Part shown: positions 1 to 17,258 of the stretch, piece by piece | Layout: every line of letters starts with the position of its first letter | Position numbering within the stretch: the stretch's first letter is position 1 | Virus record (IMG/VR): IMGVR_UViG_3300029267_000446 | Coordinates: 1 to 26,415 of that record | Direction: 5' to 3' (one strand) | Source of the DNA: a virus | Length of the DNA stretch: 26,415 bases | Program-made: the position numbers and the translations under genes | Notes under the pieces: generated by a model | What the model was told of the DNA's origin: nothing | Databases searched by the model: none | Seen by the model: the letters and a program-made list of their open reading frames with translations, nothing else

Positions 1-1550
1 AGGATTCTAAAATGGGCTGGGCGAAAGCGTACCGAGAACTGTTTAGCCTTCTCATTGGAGGTCAGGTTCCAAAATGGGACACTAGCAAAGTTCGTCCTGC
101 CGGTGCGAGACTTAAGACTTTTGGGGGTCGGGCAAGTGGACCAGAACCACTTGAAGACCTGTTTAGATTCACCGTTAACACCCTCAGAGGTGCAGCAGGT
201 AGAAAACTTACTTCTCTCGAATGTCACGATATCATCTGCAAAATTGCAGAGATCGTGGTTGTCGGAGGGGTACGCCGATCAGCACTCATTTCTCTCTCCA
301 GTCTCACTGACGAGCGAATGAGAGATGCAAAGAGTGGTGCATGGTGGGAAGCAGATCCACAACGTGCCCTCGCAAACAACTCTGTAGCATATAAGGAGAA
401 GCCAGATCCAGGCATCTTCATGGAAGAGTGGTTGTCTCTCTATAAGTCAAAGAGTGGTGAGCGTGGTATCTTCAACCGTGAAGCAGCACAGAAGCAGACT
501 CGTCGTTCAAACTACTTCCGTCTGGACATGGATGCTACCTATCGCACTCGTGAAGAAGATTGGGACTTTGGTACGAACCCATGTTCGGAGATCATTCTTC
601 GCGACAAGGAGTTCTGTAATCTTACCGAAGTCGTTATTCGCGCCGACGACACGATGGACTCCATCATGCGTAAGGTGAAACTTGCCACCATTCTTGGTAC
701 TTGGCAGTCAACTCTTGTGAACTTCAAGTATATCTCAAGTGAGTGGAAGAAGAATTGTGAAGAAGAACGCTTGCTCGGTGTCTCGATGACTGGTATAATG
801 GACTCCGAGGTGACAAGAAGTATGACAGGACTCGAAGCAAGACTCAAAGCATTCCGCAAGACTGCTATTGTTACGAACAAGGAACACGCCGATATTCTCG
901 GTATTCCTCAGTCTGCTGCTATTACTTGCGTCAAACCATCGGGTACTGTCTCTCAGTTGACTGATGCTGCATCTGGTATTCACGCACGACATAACGATTA
1001 TTACATTCGTACCGTTCGTGCTGATAACAAGGATCCGCTATGCACCTTTATGAAGGAAGCAGGATTCCCCCACGAAGCATGTGTCATGAAGCCAGAGCAT
1101 GTGACTGTATTTTCATTCCCAGTGAAGTCTCCTGACGCCTGCGTCACTCGGAATGACATGACTGCGATTGAGCAACTCGAACTCTGGTTACAATATCAGA
1201 AGCACTGGTGCGAACACAAGCCATCAGTGACCATTACTGTGAAGGAACACGAATGGCCCATTGTCGGTGGGTGGGTTTACGAGAACTTCGATGAAATCTC
1301 TGGTATTTCATTCTTGCCTTGGGACGGAGGAACATATCGCCAAGCACCATATCAAGACTGTACCAAGGAACAGTATGAGGAACTTCTATCGAAGATGCCA
1401 AAAAATATAGACTGGAATGATCTTGGAAACTATGAACAAGATGATAATACCGCAGGAAGTCAGACGATGGCTTGCTCTGGTGGGGCTTGTGAGATCGTAG
1501 ATATTACCGAGTCTGGTAATAGTGTAGAACACTCACCAAGAAGAGGTTGA
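1..1550 (+). CDS. nrdJ: Adenosylcobalamin-dependent (class II) ribonucleotide reductase, 3' part
   Basis: Reduces ribonucleotides to deoxyribonucleotides for phage DNA synthesis, using a B12 cofactor. The frame is open to the left edge, so the ATG at 12 is internal and the gene start lies outside the window. Motifs match the monomeric Lactobacillus-type reductase: GGVRRSA, ANNSVAYKEKP, NPCSEI (codons 576-593; active-site Cys at 582-584 and Glu at 588-590), LLGVSMTGIMD and CVKPSGTVSQL. The C-terminal CSGGAC (1473-1490) corresponds to the redox-active cysteine pair at the end of that enzyme family. About 18 residues follow this pair, more than I expect, so the last codons may have changed when the downstream HNH gene inserted. 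The N-terminal cysteine and the allosteric region are not visible. T4 itself uses class I and class III enzymes. Confidence 0.95.
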   Translation, partial: DSKMGWAKAYRELFSLLIGGQVPKWDTSKVRPAGARLKTFGGRASGPEPLEDLFRFTVNTLRGAAGRKLTSLECHDIICKIAEIVVVGGVRRSALISLSSLTDERMRDAKSGAWWEADPQRALANNSVAYKEKPDPGIFMEEWLSLYKSKSGERGIFNREAAQKQTRRSNYFRLDMDATYRTREEDWDFGTNPCSEIILRDKEFCNLTEVVIRADDTMDSIMRKVKLATILGTWQSTLVNFKYISSEWKKNCEEERLLGVSMTGIMDSEVTRSMTGLEARLKAFRKTAIVTNKEHADILGIPQSAAITCVKPSGTVSQLTDAASGIHARHNDYYIRTVRADNKDPLCTFMKEAGFPHEACVMKPEHVTVFSFPVKSPDACVTRNDMTAIEQLELWLQYQKHWCEHKPSVTITVKEHEWPIVGGWVYENFDEISGISFLPWDGGTYRQAPYQDCTKEQYEELLSKMPKNIDWNDLGNYEQDDNTAGSQTMACSGGACEIVDITESGNSVEHSPRRG

Positions 1551-1554
1551 AAAA

Positions 1555-1620
1555 TCCAGAGAATACTTACCCTAAACTGAATGTTTTATATATATCTGTA
1601 TAGGGTAAGTATTCTCTGGA
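1555..1620 (+). promoter_or_regulatory. 20-bp perfect hairpin sequestering the HNH ribosome binding site
   Basis: The left arm 1555-1574 and right arm 1601-1620 are perfect reverse complements, separated by a 26-base AT-rich loop. The GGAG ribosome binding site of the next gene (1618-1621) lies almost wholly inside the base of the stem, six bases before its ATG. Read-through RNA from nrdJ should therefore hide the site. No T-run follows, so it does not look like an intrinsic terminator. Confidence 0.85.
1587..1594 (+). promoter_or_regulatory. Possible late promoter inside the hairpin loop
   Basis: TATATATA in the loop differs from the T4 late motif TATAAATA at one position. Transcription from it would begin near 1600-1602, at the start of the right arm. 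Such RNA would lack the left arm and leave the HNH ribosome binding site free. The motif is degenerate, so this is inference. Confidence 0.4.
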
Positions 1621-1627
1621 GAAACGA

Positions 1628-2221
1628 ATGAACTGGGAAGAAAAGAAAAAACTTTGTTTATATAAAGGCGAAAGTCAAATAAACAAAAAGTATGGAGAAT
1701 GGACTGTTTTGGGATATTCTAGAACAAAAGAAAAACCTAGTGGTTCCGTAGCGATGTGGAAGGTTCAGTGTAGTTGTGGAACAATATCTGAAACTACATC
1801 ACACAATCTAATATATGGAAGAACAACTGGTTGTACAAAATGCTACGGTAAAAGGCATAATGGATCTAAAAATCCAAACTGGAAAGGTTTTGGTGACATC
1901 CCGTCTAGTCTGTGGAGTAGGATTCTAAACGGAGCAAAGAGTAGAAATATTGAAGTTACTGTTGATATTGAATATGTGAATGGTGTGTGGAAAAAACAAA
2001 ACGGAAAATGTGCGTTGTCTGGAGTTGATTTGACAATGGAGGAGTTTTGGAGCAGAGACTCATGGTCAAACTCACCGTCTTTAGATAGAATAGATTCATC
2101 TAAAGGTTACATCCCAGAAAATGTTCAGTGGGTACATCCTATAGTGAATATAATGAAAAACAGATTTGATACGGAAACTTTCATAACTTACTGTCGTTTA
2201 GTGACAGAACAGACTCAGTGA
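1628..2221 (+). CDS. Free-standing HNH homing-type endonuclease
   Basis: A 197-residue protein. The N-terminal half has a four-cysteine zinc-binding-like segment (CSCG near residue 48 and CTKC near residue 70). The C-terminal half has the HNH-like core GKCALSGVDL, then SPSLDRIDSSKGY, PENVQWVHPIVN and MKNRFD, typical of free-standing phage HNH nucleases that cut DNA at specific sites and spread their own gene. It lies directly after nrdJ; phage nucleotide-metabolism genes are a common home for such elements. The gene is visibly richer in A and T than nrdJ and the porin gene, which suggests recent arrival. The start has GGAG six bases upstream, inside the hairpin at 1555-1620. Function confidence is high; the target site is unknown. 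Confidence 0.85.
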   Translation: MNWEEKKKLCLYKGESQINKKYGEWTVLGYSRTKEKPSGSVAMWKVQCSCGTISETTSHNLIYGRTTGCTKCYGKRHNGSKNPNWKGFGDIPSSLWSRILNGAKSRNIEVTVDIEYVNGVWKKQNGKCALSGVDLTMEEFWSRDSWSNSPSLDRIDSSKGYIPENVQWVHPIVNIMKNRFDTETFITYCRLVTEQTQ

Positions 2222-2242: not shown

Positions 2243-3259
2243 ATGAATAAGATCAACGCTATTATTGCAACCTGTGTTCTCAGCAGCGGAGTTGCTGCCG
2301 CACAGGACATGGACACTCTAGAGCGTGTCCAACTCGATGCCGCTACCCGCGCATCACTCAACGACCAATGGATGCTCGGTCGCGTAGGCGGTTTCGTCCA
2401 AACTGGTTGGGAATACTCAAACGGCGGTGGACTTCCCGCCCAGAACGGTTTCTCAGTGGACCGTGCCCGTCTTGTTCTCGAAGGAGACATGACCGATGAA
2501 TCAATGTCATACCTCGTAAGTGGAGAATGGAGTGATCAGACTTCTACTTTTGACCTTCTCGATGCAGTTGTTACTCTTCGGATGTTCGATATCGCCAACA
2601 TCCGAGTCGGACAATTCGTCCCTCAGTTCTACGATGGATTCGTCAACGATCCAACTCAACTCACAACCTTCAACTACTCAGTCACTGCTCTCACCTTTGG
2701 ACAGGGACGAGGACAGGGTGTCGAAGTCTTCAAGAACATCGGAGACATCGAACTCAGTGGGTTCTACAACAACGGATTTGATGTCTACGGAGTCGGTGAC
2801 AATAACTTCGCAGTTGGCGGTCATGCTCGTGTTCACTTTGGTGATGGTTTCTCTGTATCCGCTGGTTACGCTCTCAATGAGGTCGCGGACTCTTCGGTGA
2901 ACTCATACACCGTGAGTGCTGCATGGCATGACGGTCCAATCGCATTTAATGTTGATTGGATCAACAACGACGAGGGTGATGACTGGGACAACTGGTCAGT
3001 CGTTACTACTCTCGGTTATGAGTGCTTCGACAACTTCCAAGGATTTGCTCAGTGGGAGTATGGTCAGTATGATGGAGATCTTAATCTCCTCACTCTCGGT
3101 GGTAACTACCACCTCAATGAATACGTCACTTGGACCAACAGCGTTGGTTATTCAGTGACTGATCTCGGTTCGAACTTCGTCACTGATAACACTGGCTGGC
3201 GTGCCGGTGGTGAAGATGGTCAGTGGGTTGCTCGTAGTGTAATTACTTTCAGTTTCTGA
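2243..3259 (+). CDS. Outer-membrane porin (OprO/OprP-like beta-barrel)
   Basis: A complete 338-residue secreted protein. Residues 1-20 form a signal peptide ending in VAAA before QD. The mature part starts with a short segment containing DAATRASLNDQ, then FVQTGWEYSNGG, NGFSVDRARLVLEGDMTDE and IRVGQFVPQF, the pattern of the phosphate-selective porin O/P family: alternating amphipathic strands with the conserved RAR region and GQF. The protein ends in Phe (VITFSF), the usual C-terminal signal for outer-membrane insertion. AAGGAG lies seven bases before the ATG. It follows the HNH gene by 21 bases and a terminator follows at 3462. Base composition resembles phage neighbours, arguing for an adapted gene. 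Substrate is not determinable; it could change uptake by the infected cell or block adsorption of other phages. Confidence 0.88.
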   Translation: MNKINAIIATCVLSSGVAAAQDMDTLERVQLDAATRASLNDQWMLGRVGGFVQTGWEYSNGGGLPAQNGFSVDRARLVLEGDMTDESMSYLVSGEWSDQTSTFDLLDAVVTLRMFDIANIRVGQFVPQFYDGFVNDPTQLTTFNYSVTALTFGQGRGQGVEVFKNIGDIELSGFYNNGFDVYGVGDNNFAVGGHARVHFGDGFSVSAGYALNEVADSSVNSYTVSAAWHDGPIAFNVDWINNDEGDDWDNWSVVTTLGYECFDNFQGFAQWEYGQYDGDLNLLTLGGNYHLNEYVTWTNSVGYSVTDLGSNFVTDNTGWRAGGEDGQWVARSVITFSF

Positions 3260-3461
3260 TTATAGAAAGGCTATAAAATGATGCAAAAACAAGAAAAAGA
3301 AACATGTTCAAAGCCATGCTGTCCGTGGGGAGGATCGTAGCGAACACGTTATGCGTGGTGATCGCGCTCCCCGTTTTGATCGTCTAGAACGTGGTGATCG
3401 TCCCGACTACCCACGGGTAGAACGAATCGCAAGAGACTGATAAAACCTCCACACTCCCAGG
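3260..3461 (+). other. Porin trailer with overlapping small ORFs
   Basis: No long gene. Three short frames overlap. 3278-3340 (20 aa) has a good ribosome binding site, GAAAGG, and ends with a cluster CSKPCCPWGGS. 3304-3387 (27 aa) would be a single hydrophobic segment, but its codon use is unlike the phage. 3351-3440 (29 aa, starting MRGDRAPRFDRLERGDR) has phage-like codon use, and its frame is open back to 3282 without a start codon. An 11-base direct repeat, cgtggtgatcg, occurs twice within 3351-3400. I cannot decide which, if any, is expressed. A +1 shift would join the first frame to the third. Confidence 0.3.
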
Positions 3462-3492
3462 CCTCTCCCATAAATATGGGAGAGGTTTTTTT
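3462..3492 (+). terminator. Intrinsic terminator after the porin gene
   Basis: Perfect 10-bp stem (3462-3471 with 3476-3485), four-base loop AAAT, then seven T. The same T-run leads straight into the ATG of the GIY-YIG gene at 3493, so the right arm (GGGAGAGG) is also that gene's only ribosome binding site candidate. Confidence 0.9.
3469..3476 (+). promoter_or_regulatory. Possible late promoter in the terminator loop
   Basis: CATAAATA spans the top of the terminator hairpin and matches the late motif at seven of eight positions. Transcription would start near 3482, leaving an almost leaderless message for the endonuclease at 3493. Tentative. Confidence 0.35.
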
Positions 3493-3942
3493 ATGTACGG
3501 ACATTGGACTGGTCTTCCAGATAATTTTGACGAGGGTGAATGGTTTGGTTTCATTTATGAAATCACCAATGTCGATACAGGAAAACGATACATCGGAAAG
3601 AAACAGTTTCATTCCTACACTCGCAAAAAGGTCAAGGGTAGAACCAATCGCAAAAGAGTAGTAAAGGAATCGAACTGGAAGAAGTATACTGGTTCTTGTG
3701 ATGAACTCAATGAAGATATTAAGAAGATGGGAAAAGAAAAGTTCTCCTTTGAGATTCTACGCTTGTGTAAAACCAAAGGAGAACTTACTTATTCTGAAGT
3801 CGAGATTCAGATCAAACGAAATGTATTGACCGAGACAATGGAGAATGGCGATCGTTTATATTACAACGGCAATATTATGAATCGGTTTTTTCCAAAGTCT
3901 GCTTCCGCTCTTTTACGAGAAGCCAAAGACAAATCAGAATGA
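3493..3942 (+). CDS. GIY-YIG endonuclease
   Basis: A 149-residue protein with the GIY-YIG nuclease core: GFIYEITN (residues 19-26), then YIGKK (33-37), followed by a basic stretch, a KYTGSCDELNEDIKKMGKEKF segment and a later Glu/Asn region (SEVEIQIKRNVL, YYNGNIM). This arrangement resembles a GIY-YIG family I know from T4-like marine phages, where it may be a homing nuclease or a DNA-processing enzyme. The start is fixed by the terminator hairpin right before it. Its 3' end overlaps the convergent lipoprotein gene by 68 bases, which is unusual and would produce complementary RNA. Nuclease assignment is good; the biological role is open. Confidence 0.8.
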   Translation: MYGHWTGLPDNFDEGEWFGFIYEITNVDTGKRYIGKKQFHSYTRKKVKGRTNRKRVVKESNWKKYTGSCDELNEDIKKMGKEKFSFEILRLCKTKGELTYSEVEIQIKRNVLTETMENGDRLYYNGNIMNRFFPKSASALLREAKDKSE

Positions 3943-13280: not shown

Positions 13281-13811
13281 TTACTCTATATGTATATCAA
13301 TCCATCTTCCCCAGAGTTCTTTTCCATTGGTATCCAGACCGATCATTCGGAGTGCGTAACAGGACTTTGGTTTCCTCGGTTTGTTTCTTAATCGCATTTT
13401 CGTTTCTTTGAGAAGTTTATTTCCCTTGCGAGTGTTGCAATCAGGGCAGGCCGTCGTGAGATTCGTCCACCCAGAATCTCCACCTCTGCTCCGAGGATGA
13501 ACGTGGTCGATGGTAAGTTTTGATGTGTCTTTGGTTCGGTGTCCGCAGTATTGGCAGGTCCAGTTATCCCGTCGAAATACATTTTGCCTCGTTGGGTTAA
13601 GTTTGTCAGACCAAGGAATGTGGACATACTGAATAAGTACAATCGCCGCTGGTAACTCATATGTCCCAGTCGTTGTCTTGATTCTGTGTTTTTTATCGTA
13701 GTTGTGGGGTTGAGTTGCTTTGCCAGATTCGATAAGTTTGACTGCTTTCTTCCAGTCAACGATTCCAAGCACCTCTTCAGATGCGTTGAGTAAGAGAACC
13801 TCTCTCTTCAT
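13281..13811 (-). CDS. HNH endonuclease (C-x2-C zinc type)
   Basis: A 176-residue protein. The N-terminus (VLLLNASEEVLGIVDWKKAVKLI) and the core CQYCG (86-90), DHVHPRSRGG (102-111), W-NL and CPDCN (122-126) make a complete zinc-supported HNH nuclease, with His103 of the Asp-His pair as general base. This form is widespread in bacteria and phages as a nicking or double-strand nuclease; in tailed phages it often lies near packaging or structural genes. A perfect late promoter lies at 13829-13836, 17 bases upstream of the ATG, with GGAGG between. Its timing therefore points to a late role or passive carriage. Confidence 0.88.
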   Translation of the reverse strand: MKREVLLLNASEEVLGIVDWKKAVKLIESGKATQPHNYDKKHRIKTTTGTYELPAAIVLIQYVHIPWSDKLNPTRQNVFRRDNWTCQYCGHRTKDTSKLTIDHVHPRSRGGDSGWTNLTTACPDCNTRKGNKLLKETKMRLRNKPRKPKSCYALRMIGLDTNGKELWGRWIDIHIE

Positions 13812-14878: not shown

Positions 14879-16377
14879 ACATGGAAGACCTACACGAAAA
14901 GAACAAGCCCACCAATCCAGATTTATGGAGTCAAGCAATTTCAAAGGCAAAGAGCAAGTTTGATGTTTATCCCTCTGCTTACGCCAACGCATGGGCGTCG
15001 AAGTGGTACAAGGAACAGGGTGGTGGTTGGAGATCAAAGAAGAAGGAGGAGTCCGTGAATTATAACGATATAGAAGAAACTGTCGAGAAAATGACAGGAG
15101 AGATTGCAGACAAGATCAAGGGTGAGATGAAAAAGCGTCTCAACAATCCAAACGCAACAGTCAAGGACTATGCAAAGAGTGCCAAAGAATCAGTAGAACT
15201 TCAAGAACAGAAGTTTAGTAAGGCACAGATCGACCGTATGCGAAAAGAGTACTCATCACTCGGTACGATAGATCCATCCCAACCAACATACAAAAGACTT
15301 ACTGAACTTCTTGATAACATGTCTGACGAACAACTCAAAAAACTTGCACAAGCAAAGATCAAGTTCGTGTCTTCACTTGCACTCAACCGAGTGAACAAAA
15401 GAAAAATGAAAAAGGAGTCAGTTGAACTCAATGAAAATAAGTTTCGTGAAGTTCTCAACCGAGGAAAGAAACTCGGTGACTGGAACATGATGTCATATTT
15501 TCTCTATCAGGGAAATGTGTGGATGCTTCAATCTGGTCGTGCAGTAAACCAAGGCGCACTTGAAGACTTTAGAAAGAGATCACAACCTGGCTTGCTCAAG
15601 TCTATTGGTCTTACCGAAGCACTTGCCGATCGTCAGGTGATTCGTCAAAAGAAACTCCCATCACTGGAAAAGAAAACAACCAACATCGCATTGGTTCTCC
15701 CAAATACTCCCGAGATGCAAACCAAGATTGATCGGGTTCTGGAATTCTCCGCAAGTACGCGAAACCGAATGAACAAATTGGTCACGGGCCGCGAGAACCG
15801 AGGAAAGGATCTGGTTCTCTACTTCCGAAGTGCTCAGTCTCGTAAGAAGTTCCAGAAGATGCTCAACGCAAAGTCAGACTGGACTGCGACCGAATCAGTC
15901 GAGCTCGATGAAGCAAGCGAGAAGGACCACGAATACTCAATGGCACGTTCACAACTCTCGACTATTGAGAAAGCAGTGATGAATCTCAAGAAGAAGATGA
16001 AGGGTGAAGGTAATCTGGAAGCATGGGTACAATCCAAACTCACCAAGGCTGCTGACTACATCGACTCTGTATCTGACTACATCGACAGTGGTGAACATGA
16101 CATAGAAGAATCGAATCTAGAGGAAAAACTCAACGATCCAGTTCGTACCTCGGGTGGACCAAAAAAGTTTATGGTAAAAGTAAAAGATCCATCTACAGGA
16201 AATGAGAAGACTGTTCGTTTTGGTGATCCAAATATGGAGATCAAGAGAGACGACCCAGAGAGAAGAAAGAGTTTTAGAGCAAGACACAATTGCGAAAACC
16301 CAGGCCCAAAGACAAAGGCTAGATATTGGTCATGTCGTATGTGGGAAAAGGGTAAGAAAGTCAGTGAATTGGATTGA
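14875..16377 (+). CDS. Multi-module head-type protein with repeated ESVEL-x-E junctions
   Basis: A 500-residue protein that looks like a string of domains. Residues 12-55 carry the KPTNPDLW...YPSAYANAWASKWYKEQGGGWR module. Near-identical junctions ESVELQE (ends at 111), ESVELNE (187) and ESVELDE (346), plus LTE (248), IEE (412) and LEE (417), all fit the T4 prohead protease rule [L/I]-x-E. Between them lie helical or basic modules, including KDHEYSMARSQL...LEAWVQSKLTKAADYIDS (about 350-400). The C-terminal module RTSGGPKKFMVKV...FGDPNMEIKRDDPERRKSFRARHNC...YWSCRMW recurs in many tailed phages. I infer a packaged precursor cut into several peptides. No capsid-targeting peptide of the MKTY type is present, though LHE occurs at residues 6-8. 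Confidence 0.75.
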   Translation: MNMEDLHEKNKPTNPDLWSQAISKAKSKFDVYPSAYANAWASKWYKEQGGGWRSKKKEESVNYNDIEETVEKMTGEIADKIKGEMKKRLNNPNATVKDYAKSAKESVELQEQKFSKAQIDRMRKEYSSLGTIDPSQPTYKRLTELLDNMSDEQLKKLAQAKIKFVSSLALNRVNKRKMKKESVELNENKFREVLNRGKKLGDWNMMSYFLYQGNVWMLQSGRAVNQGALEDFRKRSQPGLLKSIGLTEALADRQVIRQKKLPSLEKKTTNIALVLPNTPEMQTKIDRVLEFSASTRNRMNKLVTGRENRGKDLVLYFRSAQSRKKFQKMLNAKSDWTATESVELDEASEKDHEYSMARSQLSTIEKAVMNLKKKMKGEGNLEAWVQSKLTKAADYIDSVSDYIDSGEHDIEESNLEEKLNDPVRTSGGPKKFMVKVKDPSTGNEKTVRFGDPNMEIKRDDPERRKSFRARHNCENPGPKTKARYWSCRMWEKGKKVSELD

Positions 16378-16385
16378 AACACCAA

Positions 16386-17258
16386 ATGAAAACAGTAAAG
16401 CAACTCATCACAAAAACTGGTTGGTTACTACCACATTACCCAGTTCAGATCATGAACAAGTATGATGAACATGAATGGTCACATGGTGATCCAGAAGATC
16501 CTATTCACTGGACAGGTGATAAGAAGAAAGCTGACCAGATAACAAAAAAGAAAAGAGTTGCTGGTAAGAAACCATATAGTGATGATGCAGATTTCAAGAT
16601 CGAAGAGTCTTACATTTCGCCTGGTGGTGGGAGTAAGTATGGTAATGTCATCTTTCTTGCGGGTGGTGCCGGTTCTGGCAAGTCAACGGCGATTCGTAAA
16701 TTTGTAGACTTATCAAATTACAAGATCATCAACCCAGATGACTTCAAGGAACGTGCAGTCCGTGGTGCAAAAAAAGGTATCATGAGTTTCCGTCAGTTCC
16801 GTTCTCTCGATCCAAATTCACCCGAAGGCTCTTCCGAGATTCACAAGAAATTCTTTGATAAAGGAAGTGGACTGAGAAGGGCTGCGAGTGTTCTCGACGA
16901 TCCTTCACGATCAGAACTTCCAAATTATCTTTTCGATCGTACATTCTCACATGCAAAAGAATTCAAGAGAATGGCCACAAGAATGTTGAGACTGGGATAC
17001 AAACCACAAAACATGCACATTGTCTTCGTAGATACTCCAGTCGAAAGAGCAATTATGCAGAATCGTATGCGCACTCGTACACTTCCTGATGAAGTAATTC
17101 GTGCGAGCAACGAAGGTGCTCGTGCAAATGTTCGAGATTTTCTTTACAAGAGACTCAGAGGAGCCGCTATTGACGGTGATGTCTGGGTCGTACGCGGTGA
17201 TGATGTCAAGAGAGTCAAGCAGGCCGGTAGACCTTTCAATCGCACCAGTAAAATTTAA
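16386..17258 (+). CDS. P-loop kinase (zeta-toxin/polynucleotide-kinase-like)
   Basis: A 290-residue protein. Walker A GGAGSGKST lies at residues 93-101, followed by INPDDFKE (115-122), which in such kinases holds the catalytic Asp, then LFDRTFS and VFVDTPVERAIMQNRMRTRTLPDEV, a lid-type arginine region. The family phosphorylates small molecules or nucleic acid ends; similar kinases occur in T4-like marine phages. Residues 1-75 are an extra N-terminal piece starting MKTVKQLITKTGW and ending KIEE, so a prohead protease could trim it and free the kinase. ATG 16386 is preferred over TTG 16374, but no strong ribosome binding site is seen, so the start is uncertain. Confidence 0.75.
   Translation: MKTVKQLITKTGWLLPHYPVQIMNKYDEHEWSHGDPEDPIHWTGDKKKADQITKKKRVAGKKPYSDDADFKIEESYISPGGGSKYGNVIFLAGGAGSGKSTAIRKFVDLSNYKIINPDDFKERAVRGAKKGIMSFRQFRSLDPNSPEGSSEIHKKFFDKGSGLRRAASVLDDPSRSELPNYLFDRTFSHAKEFKRMATRMLRLGYKPQNMHIVFVDTPVERAIMQNRMRTRTLPDEVIRASNEGARANVRDFLYKRLRGAAIDGDVWVVRGDDVKRVKQAGRPFNRTSKI

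Follow-up and report, generated by a model that had tools for sequence, protein, structure and literature searches.

Does the long hairpin between nrdJ and an HNH endonuclease gene in an uncultured virus delay production of the nuclease until late in infection? The stretch of DNA analysed, a 26-kb virus record of 26,415 nucleotides called the window here, carries at this junction an inverted repeat with a promoter-like octamer in its loop (Table 1). Regulation by a hairpin combined with a late promoter has been described for I-TevI, I-TevII, I-TevIII, segB and mobE of Aeromonas phage Aeh1, the last being an HNH gene inserted in nrdA (reviews PMC2988022, PMC3014915). The best explanation for the present locus, and one that we consider quite probable, is a mobile cassette whose expression is switched on late, like that of I-TevI and Aeh1 mobE: a free-standing HNH homing-endonuclease gene that entered a T4-like phage genome at the 3' end of nrdJ and would bring its own expression timer. 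The evidence comprises the hairpin, an octamer at the T4 spacing, relatives with an empty site, the recurrence of the arrangement in other homing genes, and the late motif and gp55 in relatives.

Table 1. Features of the window discussed in the text
Feature	Position	Strand	Evidence
nrdJ, B12-dependent ribonucleotide reductase; 5' end outside the window	12..1550	+	phrog_367, E = 1.3e-146
Inserted segment, about 710 bp, ends approximate: nrdJ tail extension, hairpin and HNH gene	1509..2218	+	12 empty-site relatives
Left arm (anti-Shine-Dalgarno arm), TCCAGAGAATACTTACCCTA	1555..1574	+	Repeat search, RNA folding
Late-promoter-like octamer TATATATA in loop	1587..1594	+	Motif comparison; predicted +1 at 1600
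Right arm, TAGGGTAAGTATTCTCTGGA, includes GGA of the Shine-Dalgarno	1601..1620	+	Repeat search, RNA folding
Shine-Dalgarno GGAGA of the HNH gene	1618..1622	+	Sequence, predicted accessibility
HNH endonuclease gene, 197 aa	1628..2221	+	phrog_3322 endonuclease, E = 2.8e-25
Conserved gene directly after nrdJ in empty-site relatives; signal peptide, porin-like by eye	2243..3259	+	Relatives compared
Second hairpin, stem over Shine-Dalgarno of SegE-type gene	3459..3485	+	CATAAATA (3469-3476) at apex, then T7
SegE-type GIY-YIG endonuclease gene	3493..3942	+	PF19835, E = 4.8e-41

The hairpin and octamer between nrdJ and the HNH gene

The earlier note on this DNA had described a perfect 20-bp inverted repeat at this junction, and the repeat search confirmed it. 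The left arm begins 4 nt past the nrdJ stop and the loop comprises 26 nt (1575-1600); it exceeds every other perfect inverted repeat of the window in length, and also all 20 dinucleotide shuffles, in which the longest stem measured 9-13 bp. Folded as RNA, the hairpin reaches -38.4 kcal/mol (z = -7.5), a value equalled by none of 200 shuffles, whereas RNA starting at the right arm, and so without the left arm, has ordinary structure (z = 0.03). No Rfam family matched the hairpin at gathering score, and low-scoring matches to microRNA models merely reflect the long stem. The identical hairpin, followed by an identical HNH gene, is present in contigs L003 and L004.

The Shine-Dalgarno (SD) of the HNH gene reads GGAG(A), and the statement in the note that the repeat covers the ribosome binding site is true for most of it, namely the GGA at 1618-1620, and not for the AUG, because G1621 and the start codon (1628-1630) lie outside the stem, just beyond it. 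The predicted probability that the SD is unpaired is about zero at the paired bases in the long RNA as against 0.4-0.9 in the late RNA. The loop octamer stands 6 nt before the right arm and is identical to the late octamer TATAAATA at 7 of 8 positions. In T4, the late octamer occupies -13 to -6 relative to +1; the same spacing applied to the loop predicts a +1 at 1600, one base ahead of the right arm, which agrees with the suggestion in the note that the octamer is placed for transcription to begin there.

From this layout a switch can be proposed. In read-through RNA from nrdJ, made early or in the middle of infection, the left arm would pair with the right arm, the SD would be hidden and the nuclease would not be made. 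Late in infection, a gp55-directed polymerase would start at the loop octamer, with +1 at about 1600, and the resulting RNA would lack the left arm, leaving the SD open for translation of the HNH gene. In this scheme we infer that transcription comes through from nrdJ, that a late start occurs, that the stem blocks translation and that the enzyme is active in homing.

Late transcription in this group of phages

The phage is T4-like; for one conserved gene of the window, the best protein relatives are found in T4-like phages of Methylophilales, Pelagibacter and cyanobacteria. In the relatives, a late motif of the form (T/C)ATA(A/C)ATA is found upstream of genes, and exact TATAAATA precedes several genes of the window. 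Counted over the window and its nrdJ relatives, TATAAATA occurs 13 times upstream of open reading frames (ORFs) against 1.2 expected, CATAAATA 8 times against 0.7 and TATACATA 6 times against 0.65; position 5 of the octamer is variable, since TATACATA too is enriched. The version found in the loop, TATATATA, is weakly enriched (3 against 1.0 expected). The late sigma factor gp55 (phrog_234) is encoded in three longer contigs of the nrdJ relatives and was not seen in the 26-kb fragment itself. Given the enriched late motif and gp55 in relatives, a T4-type late system is well supported for this phage group, the gp55 part of the evidence coming from relatives and not from this fragment. That the loop octamer matches at 7 of 8 positions does not disqualify it, because the late octamers of T4 I-TevI (AATAAATA) and Aeh1 mobE (TCTAAATA), in sequences that we read for comparison and which have comparable stems, also match at 7 of 8.

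Exact TATAAATA also stands 25 nt upstream of the start of another HNH gene in the window (13281-13811, minus strand). A kinase-like P-loop protein, encoded at 16374-17258 on the plus strand, matches Zeta_toxin/AAA_33.

The HNH gene, its relatives and the empty site

The HNH fold or family match expected of a free-standing HNH homing endonuclease was found. PHROGs matches were to endonuclease and HNH families, including phrog_1035 "endonuclease VII" (8.6e-21). In the alignment, cysteine pairs and SLDRID..GY...NVQWVH..N are conserved. The phrog_1035 match would fit the DHHRN (F-CphI/Endo VII) family with its D-H-H-R-N catalytic set, but the conserved core, as judged from sequence, reads SLDRID...N...WVH...N. 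An AlphaFold2 model (mean pLDDT 89.5) had as its best Foldseek match in the PDB the HNH nuclease PacI, with modest scores (E = 8e-3). We found no Pfam match for the protein, and a sequence search of the PDB gave nothing relevant.

In 26 of 77 other loci, nrdJ lies directly upstream of the HNH relative (within about 270 nt of the conserved end of nrdJ); these include phages with an nrdJ of only about 30% identity, and the crAss-like phage PhiCrAssBcn18 has the same gene order. The closest homologs, L098 and L099 (48-49% identity), are also behind nrdJ. Judged by position, this HNH lineage seems specialised for nrdJ; a tendency of homing genes to lie close to ribonucleotide reductase genes has been described (PMC10448857). 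The phages with HNH relatives directly behind nrdJ are very diverse (about 26 loci, L098-L172, plus L178 and L179), and in Rhizobium phage RHph_N3_13 (L179) nrdJ is split by the HNH relative.

Relatives with an empty site delimit the insertion. Twelve contigs (nrdJ about 71-82% identical, some contigs near-identical to one another) have the order nrdJ...TGA-TC..CATAAGGAG-porin with no insert, the porin-like gene starting within about 25 nt of the nrdJ end; the corresponding gene of the window has no Pfam or PHROG match. The HNH gene is thereby polymorphic in presence at a single site. In the window, the last nrdJ codons and the stop come from the insert: the C-terminal extension ESGNSVEHSPRRG is missing in the empty-site relatives, whose nrdJ products end ...CEIVDLTN* or nearly so, and the HNH stop TGA occupies the position of the original nrdJ stop. 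The question of whether the repeat came with the gene, raised in the earlier note, can be answered from these contigs: all 12 have neither hairpin nor HNH gene, and the two therefore arrived together. At the ends of the insert there is a 7-bp inverted match, GAGTCTG at 1509-1515 and CAGACTC at 2210-2216, possibly by chance.

The repeat might instead be a transcription terminator, or act at the level of DNA in connection with the insertion. The minus strand does have TTTTT after the stem, but on the plus strand no T-run follows it (GAAACGAATG) and no terminator was called; the missing T-run on the coding strand led us to rule out the terminator. As for a repeat tied to insertion, a search of the window for further copies of the arms returned none, the hairpin region is unlike the empty site, and in L098 and L099 the HNH gene was inserted without the repeat. 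We regard this pair of readings as highly improbable. An autorepressor operator of the I-TevI type, resembling the homing site, was also considered and rejected: similarity between hairpin and empty site was not above that of shuffles.

Hairpins at other HNH genes

A perfect stem of at least 8 bp covers the SD at 14 of 70 non-redundant HNH starts, as against 5 of 217 other gene starts from these loci (Fisher p = 4e-6) and 2.4% in shuffles, an enrichment of about nine-fold over other genes; the stems have no obvious common sequence. This distribution bears on a further explanation, in which the duplex is cut by RNase III or shields the nrdJ mRNA and its overlap with the SD is incidental. A perfect 20-bp duplex 4 nt past nrdJ would suit such a role, yet stems cluster over the SDs of homing genes and not at other gene starts, and nrdJ does not need the hairpin, because the empty-site relatives do without the duplex; we consider processing or protection of the nrdJ message very unlikely.

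The closest homologs, L098 and L099, have exact TATAAATA just ahead of the HNH SD and no hairpin. The hairpin is not obligatory, since these homologs have the late box without it, and the sequences suggest that late expression varies less among HNH homologs than the hairpin does. Cyanophage S-SKS1 has an HNH homolog behind psbD whose SD is covered by a stem of 11 pairs, and the loop of this stem contains exact TATAAATA; the fold as a whole is unexceptional compared with shuffles (z = -1.07). Against the late-expression switch count the octamer match of 7/8, the weak enrichment of TATATATA, gp55 encoded in relatives rather than in this fragment, the closest homologs without hairpin and the unexceptional fold in S-SKS1.

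One could also suppose that the hairpin represses HNH translation in all RNAs as a constant damper and that polymerase does not use the loop octamer as a promoter, relief coming from ribosomes ending nrdJ or from RNA processing. At the HNH starts of L170, L112 and L103 the SD has a long stem in which no late octamer was recognised, which fits this explanation, as does an nrdJ stop only 4 nt upstream; the explanation leaves aside, however, the octamers at T4 spacing in the window, in S-SKS1 and in all seven SegE-type hairpins described below, and the enrichment of TATTTAT upstream in some other phages, where it is present in at least one such hairpin (L143). Constant repression is, in our view, unlikely, and the late-expression switch is preferred.

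TATTTAT and CTATTTA occur 18 and 11 times within 60 nt upstream of ORFs, against 1.2 and 0.37 expected, in contigs L105, L119, L126, L129, L143, L144 and others, ahead of HNH and other ORFs. By their position they are a possible promoter of other phage lineages; in L143 the hairpin that covers the HNH SD has the motif in its loop.

A second hairpin, at a SegE-type gene

The second hairpin of the window precedes a SegE-type GIY-YIG gene and is kept in relatives L009 and L012. Stems of at least 8 bp were found at 7 of 37 non-redundant SegE-type starts, with NATAAATA in the loop of all seven, and the stem in L211 is 20 bp long. A gp55-family protein is encoded in 5 of the 6 contigs tested from the SegE-type matches. 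A scan of 1.2 Mb of phage DNA for a stem with a loop octamer, an SD and an ORF returned 7 distinct cases, all at homing-type genes, and none in shuffles; the loci were largely chosen around homing genes, hence these counts are no measure of specificity, and one case, Aeh1 mobE, was deliberately included. In the new cases, the distance of the predicted +1 from the start of the right arm ranges from -3 to +6 nt. The same anatomy recurs independently at unrelated homing-endonuclease genes and is present twice in this window.

The SegE-type genes with the SD in a hairpin and NATAAATA in the loop are those of the window (3459-3493), L211, L195, L209, L197, L223 and L212. In the window and in L009 and L012, the SegE-type hairpin resembles an intrinsic terminator with its T-run, so that terminator, promoter and ribosome binding site appear fused.

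Comparison with known systems

As in I-TevI and mobE, the locus has a stem that sequesters the SD and, as far as sequence can tell, a late promoter placed so that late RNA would lack the left arm. Aeh1 mobE is a near-exact parallel: an HNH homing gene at a ribonucleotide reductase gene of a T4-like phage, with an SD-hiding stem and a late promoter in the hairpin. Its stem is 13 bp in our reading and that of the window 20 bp, its octamer is TCTAAATA where the window has TATATATA, and it splits nrdA, whereas nrdJ stays whole with a new tail. The proteins are not detectably related: the HNH protein of the window shows no detectable homology to Aeh1 MobE, and shared ancestry was rejected (BLASTP E = 0.22, hhalign probability 0.4%). 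The logic is shared and the protein family separate.

In T4, I-TevI likewise has its SD hidden by a stem in read-through RNA and a late start within the hairpin, but it is a GIY-YIG enzyme inside a group I intron and also acts as a repressor at an operator similar to its homing site, a similarity not found in the window. The leaders of T4 gene e (lysozyme) and soc have SD hairpins bypassed by late promoters as well; these are late genes of the phage core and not mobile elements. F-CphI of cyanophage S-PM2 resembles the HNH protein in being a free-standing homing nuclease of the beta-beta-alpha-metal type, encoded next to its target gene by a marine T4-like phage; it differs in having a DHHRN/Endo VII motif, against SLDRID...NVQWVH...N, and psbA as target, and neither hairpin nor late promoter is described for it (PMC6083498).

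Comparative evidence supports the proposed switch. The view of the earlier note that I-TevI-like logic operates at an unrelated HNH gene next to nrdJ is supported by the late motif, the I-TevI/mobE geometry, the empty sites and the recurrence; late expression itself is a prediction. Such a transfer of the I-TevI logic to an HNH gene is not new, having been published for Aeh1 mobE at a ribonucleotide reductase gene (PMC2988022, PMC3014915). Regulation of homing genes by hairpin and late promoter is already known, and its spread here is broader than the cited sources describe. Tentatively, we suggest that the hairpin with a promoter in its loop may be a portable or repeatedly evolved timer of unrelated homing families (nrdJ-associated HNH, SegE-type GIY-YIG) across uncultured T4-like phages, with unrelated stems and the same geometry, and that phages without detectable gp55 may use the layout with CTATTTAT.

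The I-TevI/mobE timer is then not peculiar to a few cultured T-even phages: the same geometry is found on unrelated nuclease families with unrelated stems, twice in one fragment of an uncultured virus. Should the switching be confirmed, holding back the nuclease to the late stage would appear to be something that phage homing genes generally need, and such genes could be sought by the signature of a stem that encloses a late octamer.
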